Shown here: positions 17,641 to 19,996 of the stretch, piece after piece | How positions within the stretch are numbered: position 1 is the stretch's first letter | How the letters are laid out: each line of letters starts with the position of its first letter | Source of the DNA: a virus | Virus record (IMG/VR): IMGVR_UViG_3300024305_000001 | Location: 1 to 41,034 of that record | Reading direction: 5' to 3' (one strand) | Length of the DNA stretch: 41,034 nt | Position numbers and translations under genes: made by a program | The notes under the pieces: generated by a model | What the model was told of the DNA's origin: nothing | The model's database searches: none | What the model saw: only the letters and a program-made list of their open reading frames with translations

Positions 17641-18228
17641 TTAATTAGAAGTTATGCGAGCTTTCACTGCATCAGCTAATGAAAGTCCGGTATTGTTATT
17701 TGTATTATCAGTTGCTTGTGCTGGTTTAGTACCATCGATAATTACGGTATCTGATTTAAAAAGCATCTTGCTATCCTCAGCAGATTTCAATAAATCAAGC
17801 TGTTCTTTAAGTCCACTAATACCTTTGTCATCCATAGAAATTTTCCCAGCATCAATTAAAGCCTTAACAGCTTTAAGATTAATAGCTCCTGAAGACATGA
17901 GTTCACTTTCGATAGCATGTTCTTTCATAAGCTCGTTTAATTTTGCTTCTGCTTCTTGCTTCATAGTTTTGTTCTGCTCTTGTAAATCATTAATTTGTTT
18001 CTTAAGCTCTTCGTTATTACCTGCTGAATCTTTAAGCTCTTTAAGTTGTTTGTCTCTTTGAGCTATTTGTTCATCCAAAGAACTAAGTTGACTCTTAAGC
18101 GATGCAATATCCGATTTCAAAGTTTCTGCATCAGCTTTAGCTGCATTAACATCCTTTCCGTTTTCAGCCATAACCTTGCTAATTTGCTCATCAGTTAGAC
18201 CCATTGCTTTTAAATCTTCTGTTTTCAT
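17641..18228 (-). CDS. Scaffold protein, GP20 family
   Basis: This 195-residue protein has the minor structural GP20/scaffold pattern. A short N-terminal KTEDLKAMGLTDEQISKVM segment is followed by a long coiled coil (about 30-105), an AIESELMSSGAINLKAVKALID motif (about 110-131) and a flexible tail. Scaffolds direct capsid assembly and are then removed. The gene lies directly upstream of the capsid gene and behind a long structured leader, after a terminator. Confidence 0.9.
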   Translation of the reverse strand: MKTEDLKAMGLTDEQISKVMAENGKDVNAAKADAETLKSDIASLKSQLSSLDEQIAQRDKQLKELKDSAGNNEELKKQINDLQEQNKTMKQEAEAKLNELMKEHAIESELMSSGAINLKAVKALIDAGKISMDDKGISGLKEQLDLLKSAEDSKMLFKSDTVIIDGTKPAQATDNTNNNTGLSLADAVKARITSN

Positions 18229-18235
18229 ACTAATT

Positions 18236-18428
18236 TACTCCTTTCATACATAGGCTTTTTAGGTCGTCGCCATGACCTTGTATTGCTGATTTTAGGTTCA
18301 GCTAACCAATTATTGACATTAAAATAAGCCGTTTTAAGACATGCTCAGGTCTTTAGCGAAATTCCTTATCGGGTAAGTTTAACGACTTTCCGAGTGGTCG
18401 AGATAATAGATCCCCTCATTTCAGGCAT
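18236..18428 (-). ncRNA. Structured RNA leader of the GP20 scaffold gene (GP20-type candidate)
   Basis: About 190 bases on the minus strand have no good reading frame but many short hairpins. In order they are CGAC/GTCG (loop containing TCGG), CTTA/TAAG (loop CCCGA), AAGAC/GTCTT, and a closing GGCTT/AAGCC stem. The closing stem encloses GGTT/AACC and AGGTC/GACCT hairpins. Two loop pairings are possible: TCGG with CCGA, and the GCTGA loop with TCAGC just downstream. From memory, conserved RNA motifs named GP20-a and GP20-b have been described upstream of GP20 genes; this may be a member or a relative. It starts right after a terminator and ends at the scaffold ribosome site. Confidence 0.6.
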
Positions 18429-18470
18429 GAAAAAACCACCTAGCTTTATCCATATAAAGTAAGTGGTCTT
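18429..18470 (-). terminator. Terminator between putative immunity gene and the RNA leader
   Basis: On the minus strand ACCACTTACTTTAT pairs with ATAAAGCTAGGTGGT with small mismatches around a 4-base loop, followed by six T. It overlaps the last bases of the 65-residue gene. It is one of the strongest hairpins in the window. Confidence 0.85.
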
Positions 18471-18667: not shown

Positions 18668-19996
18668 TCATTTCCTTCTTTCTAATTTTTCTCTTGTTTT
18701 CTTTCCTGTTTTCCATACTGTTATAACAGTTCCTATATCAGGGTTTATATTCACTGTAGCCTCATTTCCTATAAATCTTTGGCTTTTTCTTCCTATTTCA
18801 TCTATTCTAGGCTCTAAAATTTGTAAAGGCATCAATAAAGCATTTATAATCTCATCTTTAGAAATCCCTCTTTCTTCTGCTCTCTCTAATGCGTGTATTG
18901 AATTTTCATTTATTGATATGCCATTACTTGTAATGATATTATACCCTTTTTTATTGAAACTATCCAATATATGAGTTTTCTTCCACTCATCAAATTTTAT
19001 TTTCCCAGGAACATAATAAGTCTCTCCAGTTTCAAGGTCTCTTGCTGCTCTTTCTTCTAATTCATCGTCAAAACCTTCTACTACTGGAATAGTAGTTGTC
19101 CTGCACCTACAATGAAATGGCGGAGCCGTAATTCCAGCGCTGTACTCTTTCATATTAAACACTTTTCCATCAAGAGATTGGCATATGTCAGATGTCTTCA
19201 TGTCTAGAGTAGCTAGTATTTCATACTTTTCTAATCCCAACTCTTTATATGCCATACCATCACCCTCAGAAGCGAAATATGCGGATTCAGTCATAACTAA
19301 ATTAGATGCATTTGACTTTTTAACATCAAATAGCTTACTTATTCTATTTATTGCCTTGTCAGGAGATTCTCCACGGATGAAAGATTGTTGCAGTGTTATT
19401 TGAAGCTCATTAATTAATCGTTCTTGGTTTTCCCATATCCGCTTACTGAAGTTTTTACCATCTGATGTCCACGGCCTACTTAGTACAGCTTCTATTTCCT
19501 TTTCATTTAGTTTTGAAAATGTTCTATCTGGATTTACTATGCTAGAGACTTCATAAATCACATTATAGTAATGATTTTCAAAGATACTTTTCATTTTGTC
19601 TTTTACATCTATACCTTGCTGAGAATATAGCTTCTCAACGTGATATCTCATTTGAAGATTCATGCTGTTAAGATATGAAATTCGAGTAGCTGCAGATGCA
19701 TTTTCAAGTTGCTTGATTGTTTTTTCGGACAGGATTCCTGAACCTTTTTCAATATACTCTTCAACTGTCCATTTAAATTCTTCTAACTCTTTATTACTTA
19801 AAAGTTTCTTAGCTTCACTTAAACTCATTTCGTTGTTAGAAGCTATTTTTTTTAAAAAGTTGTATATTTCTTTATTCAATTCACTTGCTGCTTTTTTATA
19901 TGCTTCTTCTATATTTTGAGCATATTCATTAGATTCAGAAAATGTTTGTTCATGTAACTGCTCAGATCTTATTATCCAATACTCACTATGATTCAT
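18668..19996 (-). CDS. Minor head protein (SPP1 gp7/Mu F-like) with nuclease-toxin-like C-terminus
   Basis: This 442-residue protein has the Mu F-like domain in its first 340 residues, ending with the PPFHCRCR motif (about 292-299) and the usual GETYYVPGKIKFDEW segment. It joins the portal and enters with or sits near the DNA. Residues 358-442 form an extra domain with HALERAEER (about 368-376), SQRFIG (405-410) and NPDIGTVITVWKT (418-430). This pattern fits BECR-fold (barnase/EndoU/colicin-type) nucleases fused to phage head proteins. A small putative immunity gene follows. Toxicity has to be inferred. Confidence 0.85.
   Translation of the reverse strand: MNHSEYWIIRSEQLHEQTFSESNEYAQNIEEAYKKAASELNKEIYNFLKKIASNNEMSLSEAKKLLSNKELEEFKWTVEEYIEKGSGILSEKTIKQLENASAATRISYLNSMNLQMRYHVEKLYSQQGIDVKDKMKSIFENHYYNVIYEVSSIVNPDRTFSKLNEKEIEAVLSRPWTSDGKNFSKRIWENQERLINELQITLQQSFIRGESPDKAINRISKLFDVKKSNASNLVMTESAYFASEGDGMAYKELGLEKYEILATLDMKTSDICQSLDGKVFNMKEYSAGITAPPFHCRCRTTTIPVVEGFDDELEERAARDLETGETYYVPGKIKFDEWKKTHILDSFNKKGYNIITSNGISINENSIHALERAEERGISKDEIINALLMPLQILEPRIDEIGRKSQRFIGNEATVNINPDIGTVITVWKTGKKTREKLERRK

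Follow-up and report, generated by a model that had tools for sequence, protein, structure and literature searches.

A non-coding stretch lies ahead of the capsid scaffolding gene in the virus record IMGVR_UViG_3300024305_000001, of which positions 1 to 41,034 (41,034 nucleotides, the window) were analysed, and it raises the question of what RNA it encodes and what this RNA does for the gene behind it. A first-pass annotation, made from the letters alone, had placed a structured RNA at 18236-18428. The coordinates and the non-coding nature hold, but the RNA belongs to the minus strand, where it runs from 18400 to 18238. In the 200 bases that precede the scaffold gene on the minus strand (18428-18229), no ORF of at least 60 amino acids covers the leader, and there are stops in every coding-strand frame across the region. 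The annotation had also set the RNA between a terminator and the ribosome site of a GP20 scaffold gene, in agreement with the layout found:

18430..18468, minus strand: terminator-like hairpin with a U6 tract, 5′ border of the leader (GACCACUUACUUUAU...AUAAAGCUAGGUGGUUUUUU; from sequence)
18238..18244, minus strand: Shine-Dalgarno sequence AAAGGAG (from sequence)
17641..18228, minus strand: gene of the capsid assembly scaffolding protein, PF06810, 195 aa (Pfam match, E 3.1e-39)

The terminator-like hairpin was absent from the scan with a terminator tool because its stem has an internal loop. The head module is SPP1-like, with a portal of the SPP1_portal family and a Mu F-like protein. The latter (18668-19996, minus strand) shows a C-terminal DUF4258 match just under the cut-off.

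The region had been described as containing at least six short hairpins. As plain hairpins these are not unusual, as the nested folding energy is the same as that of shuffles (z -0.12 on the plus strand, z +0.56 on the minus strand), and the presence of many hairpins was rejected as evidence by itself. These energies would be expected if the spacer held ordinary hairpins or a chance fold and its match to an Rfam family were functionless. The unusual part of the region is its pseudoknots.

When the window was searched with Rfam models, the element proved to be a member of the GP20-b family with a revised, larger structure:

18251..18307, minus strand: match to Rfam RF03003 GP20-b, 47.6 bits (cut-off 36.2), E 1.4e-7 (cmscan)

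GP20-a, which had been named together with GP20-b, matched neither the window nor any of the related loci scanned, and gave no hit at E <= 1 in 17 loci. The PF06810 gene begins 22 nt downstream of the GP20-b match on the same strand. Both stems of the two-hairpin GP20-b consensus form standard pairs in the window alignment, and both are parts of larger pseudoknots: they correspond to stem 2 (S2) of the unit that we call D and to stem 1 (S1) of unit E. The GP20-b structure line, as given by cmscan, which prints no pseudoknots, is without S1 of D, S2 of E and the helix P3, and it stops before two further units, A and C. The window leader can be read as four tandem H-type pseudoknots, each with an A-rich loop (UAAAA), and in each unit stem 2 is formed by the loop of hairpin 1 and bases past the A-rich loop 3:

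18369..18400, minus strand: pseudoknot unit A (pseudoknot parse, class-level S2 test); CGAC-cac-UCGG-aaa-GUCG-uuaaacuuac-CCGA, with S1 CGAC/GUCG (18400-18397 with 18386-18383), S2 UCGG/CCGA (18393-18390 with 18372-18369) and loop 3 UUAAACUUAC
18325..18353, minus strand: pseudoknot unit C (parse, class-level S2 test); AAGAC-c-UGAGC-au-GUCUU-aaaacg-GCUUA, with S1 AAGAC/GUCUU, S2 UGAGC/GCUUA and loop 3 AAAACG, then UUUUAAU
18285..18307, minus strand: pseudoknot unit D (Rfam match and covariation); GGU-ua-GCUGA-ACC-uaaaa-UCAGC, with S1 GGU/ACC, S2 GCUGA/UCAGC (18302-18298 with 18289-18285, drawn in Rfam GP20-b) and loop 3 UAAAA
18253..18278, minus strand: pseudoknot unit E (covariation and held-out leaders); AGGUC-au-GGC-gac-GACCU-aaaaa-GCC, with S1 AGGUC/GACCU (drawn in Rfam GP20-b), S2 GGC/GCC (18271-18269 with 18255-18253, missing from the GP20-b structure line) and loop 3 AAAAA
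18279..18283, minus strand: 5′ strand of P3, AUACA, enclosing unit E (cross-pairing test)
18246..18250, minus strand: 3′ strand of P3, UGUAU, ending one base ahead of the Shine-Dalgarno sequence (cross-pairing test)

Two long-range pairings seen earlier, TCGG with CCGA and GCTGA with TCAGC, do exist, but not as loop-loop contacts: the first is S2 of unit A, within an intramolecular H-type pseudoknot, and the second is S2 of unit D, already paired in GP20-b. The helix P3 had not been mentioned. The first unit of the Listeria A118 leader (CGACCUGUUCGGAAGUCGUAAAAAGACGG) resembles unit A.

Using a scan grammar of stem 1, stem 2 and A-rich-loop units that was itself learned from these leaders, we obtained a score of 47.0 with 4 units for the window leader, compared to a mean of 2.2 and a maximum of 21.7 for 1000 dinucleotide shuffles of it, none of which had 4 units (0/1000). 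The best of 818 other window tiles (200 nt, both strands) scored 24.4. In 87 non-redundant leaders, the density was 1.59 units per 130 nt; shuffles had 0.17, and the first 130 nt of the genes had 0.07. Because of the origin of the grammar, independent tests were made by covariation and on held-out leaders.

A nucleotide search of phages and plasmids found no homologous leader, and relatives were therefore collected, by way of their scaffold protein, among viral contigs, bacterial genomes and named phages. Across about 87 leaders, pairings that had not been used for fitting covary. As a control, loops and downstream bases were exchanged between phages while hairpin 1 of unit E was kept fixed. 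The best score for stem 2 of unit E was 8.80 with the true partners and 7.14 +/- 0.19 (maximum 7.74) with swapped ones. Cross-pairing gave 10.66 versus 8.67 +/- 0.27 for P3 and 10.42 versus 7.51 +/- 0.38 for S2 of unit D. For the upstream units, an initial S2 test on a mixed set of hairpins did not reach significance (8.91 versus 8.08 +/- 0.43). The class-level test on C-like units was significant (9.92 versus 7.92 +/- 0.39, 0/1000) only after the class had been set as a 7-10 nt loop starting with C, and some units were counted twice. Units A and C consequently rest on less than D and E.

A covariance model was built from three helices only, P3 and stem 1 of each of D and E; in 310 kb it recovered 57 leaders and no other sequence. 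Stem 2 of E, which had no part in the model, was formed at four pairs by every sequence (100%) of the resulting alignment (A4), with pair types such as A-U 12, G-C 9 and C-G 2, or U-A 17 and A-U 6. It showed 18 two-sided changes compared to 4.8 by shuffling, and a covariation of 0.433 compared to 0.108. The pairing was lost in slid registers. Over the whole structure, 87.9% of cells in A4 were paired, with 104 two-sided changes versus 30.9, and S1 of unit D was paired in 98.9%, both sides having changed at 3/4 pairs. In the mixed alignment of the group that includes the window (A5), S1 of D was paired in 91.3% and stem 2 of E in 84.6%, the latter with 13 two-sided changes versus 3.3. A5 is partly misaligned at P3 and S1/S2 (S1 of E 65.7% and P3 38.8% paired), and for these helices we relied on A4 and the cross-pairing tests. 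Leaders found later by the Rfam model only, and thus independent of our own sequences, served as the held-out set. They gave 8.25 versus 6.91 for unit E (1/1000) and 10.43 versus 7.80 for unit D, which is less independent because its stem is contained in the Rfam model. This supports the pseudoknot grammar.

All these comparisons between phages show that H-type pseudoknots, two to four as a rule and four in the window, stand in a row and make up the 5′ leader of the scaffold mRNA. Each combines two short stems, which vary freely, with an A-rich loop 3 (UAAAA). The feature in the window is real. The unpaired positions that are conserved, the UAAAA loop and a UA following stem 2, fit a specific recognition. 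The absence of covariation in relatives had been named as an outcome that would speak against the element; covariation was found.

The same comparisons show the last unit, E, enclosed by P3, whose 3′ strand reaches or enters the Shine-Dalgarno sequence. Among 49 leaders, P3 directly adjoins S1 of E in 31, and in 33 its 3′ strand ends 0-5 nt ahead of the Shine-Dalgarno core. In 15 it overlaps the core, although some of these overlaps may be spurious helices.

When 786 genomes were searched with the Rfam family down to E 1e-3, all 30 GP20-b hits (30/30) lay directly before a scaffold ORF. With our own R1 model, five of six strong hits in 691 genomes stood before a scaffold gene; the other strong hit is a truncated copy, and two weak ones are due to chance. 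One leader (L207) is cut inside unit E and fused to unrelated sequence without a scaffold gene, and is probably a prophage remnant. Judged by its genomic positions, the RNA element is shown to belong to the scaffold gene, and the cis-acting role that had been suspected fits this strict linkage. Together with an Rfam match well over the cut-off and covariation confirmed by cross-pairing controls and held-out leaders, the linkage leaves a chance fold in the spacer, already disfavoured by the covariation, with hardly any probability.

The leader is found in phages of Listeria, Bacillus, Lactobacillus, Streptococcus, Brevibacillus, Clostridia and Treponema (L197 is the leader from a cultured Treponema). 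The leaders of A118, SPP1, LL-H, P7.1 and phig1e gave no GP20-b match even at E <= 1, yet contain the same kind of pseudoknot units. What appears to be new is the architecture of tandem pseudoknots with P3 and additional upstream units, and its occurrence in phages missed by Rfam; part of the structure may already have been proposed. Conservation of the design across phages of many bacteria suggests a control over the amount of scaffold protein made.

As the reading that we tentatively prefer, at somewhat less than an even chance, we propose by analogy that the leader is a translational operator through which the scaffold or coat protein limits its own synthesis. Unassembled scaffold protein, or coat protein from the next gene, would bind the pseudoknots, probably several copies together, and would stabilise the fold of E and P3 against the ribosome site, with less initiation as the result. 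Procapsid assembly would consume the protein, so that the leader opens and synthesis resumes, and the output of scaffold and coat would be matched to assembly. The pairing supported by covariation, the contact of P3 with the Shine-Dalgarno sequence, the exclusive linkage to scaffold genes and the conserved unpaired bases all argue for an operator.

This proposal is taken from gene 32 of T4, where a protein nucleates on an upstream mRNA pseudoknot, and is applied to a structural protein as in phage P22. P22, with its autoregulated scaffolding protein, is alike in having a scaffold gene with presumed feedback of assembly on expression, but it is a different phage with a different scaffold family, and we know of no pseudoknot leader at its scaffold gene. 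In T4, the repression of the gp32 mRNA by its own protein is exerted from a pseudoknot 67 nt ahead of its start codon; a 2010 review describes this pseudoknot as possibly the sole viral one for translational autoregulation (PMC3014915). Gene 32 of T4 and T2 shares two features with our locus (PMC3014915): an H-type pseudoknot that lies in the phage leader, ahead of the ribosome site, and a proposed autogenous control; in the scaffold leader, the H-type pseudoknot that marks the gene 32 type was found by covariation. Gene 32 is a coliphage gene for an ssDNA-binding protein, with a single pseudoknot far from the ribosome site, whereas the scaffold leader has 2-4 tandem pseudoknots, one of them abutting the Shine-Dalgarno sequence, and we infer autoregulation for it.

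The AlphaFold model of the window protein consists mostly of long helices, and structure searches with this coiled coil found no known RNA-binding fold, which counts against the proposal. Scaffold N-termini are also very different between SPP1-type and VMAENGKD-type phages, and the presence of the leader in both speaks against an operator as well. The N-terminus LKxLGLxDExIxKVMAENGKDI (window 17641-18228, minus strand, and relatives) is far more conserved than the remainder of the protein; this is partly a bias of the search seed, and related motifs recur in named phages. We rejected the VMAENGKD N-terminus as an RNA-binding domain, since it was unsupported by structure searches, SPP1-type scaffolds differ and the motif was partly the search seed.

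The 5′ edge of the leader also bears on its function. A terminator-like hairpin precedes 52 of 85 leaders, compared to 23 of 425 shuffled sequences (5%), and the median distance from the end of the U-tract to the first pseudoknot is 11 nt. The leaders of Listeria A118 and LL-H are without an upstream terminator. In streptococcal-type phages, a tRNA-Ala(tgc) gene ends about 2-4 nt before the first pseudoknot (L105:1348-1426, L107:1348-1424, L109:1348-1424), so that the 5′ end of the mRNA would be set there by RNase P/Z processing. tRNA-like acceptor and T-arm motifs (GGGTTCAATTCCC, GGGTTCGACTCCTG) without an ARAGORN call occupy the same place in SPP1 (L061, about 100-145 bases before the scaffold start) and in L189 (about 90-137 bases).

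An operator does not need such a boundary element, which argues against it. The boundary is better accounted for if the tandem pseudoknots guard the 5′ end of the mRNA, blocking a 5′-to-3′ exonuclease (RNase J in these hosts) and prolonging the life of the scaffold and capsid mRNA after the late transcript has been cut or has ended at the upstream element, be it a terminator hairpin, a tRNA or a pseudoknot with a U-tract. We consider this guard, the chief rival of the operator, rather unlikely. Terminator hairpins, tRNA-Ala and tRNA-like motifs at the edge would all fit it, as would a shape that is kept, in tandem copies, while the stems vary freely; the exclusive linkage to one gene and the position of P3 at the Shine-Dalgarno sequence are not required by it, and the missing terminators of A118 and LL-H do not agree with it. 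To our knowledge, no simple H-type pseudoknot stops RNase J.

A precedent exists in vitro, as a flaviviral xrRNA blocks the bacterial RNase J1 (PMC5760640). Like the leader, flaviviral xrRNAs are tandem pseudoknotted RNAs at the 5′ end of a transcript, but they have a ring-shaped three-way-junction fold with a conserved core and lie in the 3′ UTRs of RNA viruses. The xrRNA tested against RNase J1 has this ring fold, and no three-way junction with a ring was present in the leader parse, where the covarying structure consists of simple H-type units. That the leader is the DNA-phage counterpart of an xrRNA, a barrier to RNase J at a processed 5′ end whose last pseudoknot also gates the ribosome, seems unlikely to us. 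The roles of operator and RNase J guard could act together.

U-tracts within the leader raise a further explanation. At least 5 U occur in the 8 nt following 62% of the upstream units, compared to 0% for E and 9% for D. In L152, L160, L165, L140, L199 and the window (18353-18318), a pseudoknot with a U-tract directly behind it takes the place held by a hairpin terminator in other phages, and such units are possible pseudoknotted terminators. Unit C and its like, or the hairpin, could act as a regulated terminator and determine how much transcription reads through into the capsid genes. We regard this transcription control as very unlikely, since D and E, the most conserved units, come after the terminator and without a U-tract, the tract following unit C in the window is weak (UUUUAAU), and no promoter stood out (3 matches versus 2.3 expected by chance).

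Some riboswitches use H-type pseudoknots with an A-rich loop 3, and tandem copies are known in some, so that the leader could sense a small molecule or an ion. The stem sequences are free, however, and apart from UAAAA, UA and a short loop 2 no conserved pocket is seen; a metabolite switch tied solely to a scaffold gene would be odd. We judge a sensor extremely unlikely.

For GP20-b, a small RNA family drawn with two hairpins, the analysis provides a defined architecture in which tandem pseudoknots are combined with a helix next to the ribosome site. The same design is present in phages missed by the Rfam model, such as SPP1 and Listeria A118. If the operator proposal is true, this would be a second, far wider case of a viral pseudoknot for translational autoregulation, in genetically tractable phages. 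The balance of scaffold and coat synthesis in tailed phages becomes directly testable. Other structured RNAs occur upstream of some leaders: skipping-rope RNAs (Rfam RF02924) lie a few hundred bases upstream at L181:884-966 and, in tandem, at L184:745-841 and 891-985, and a RAGATH-21 RNA (RF03097, 85 bits) was found at L189:1092-1160.
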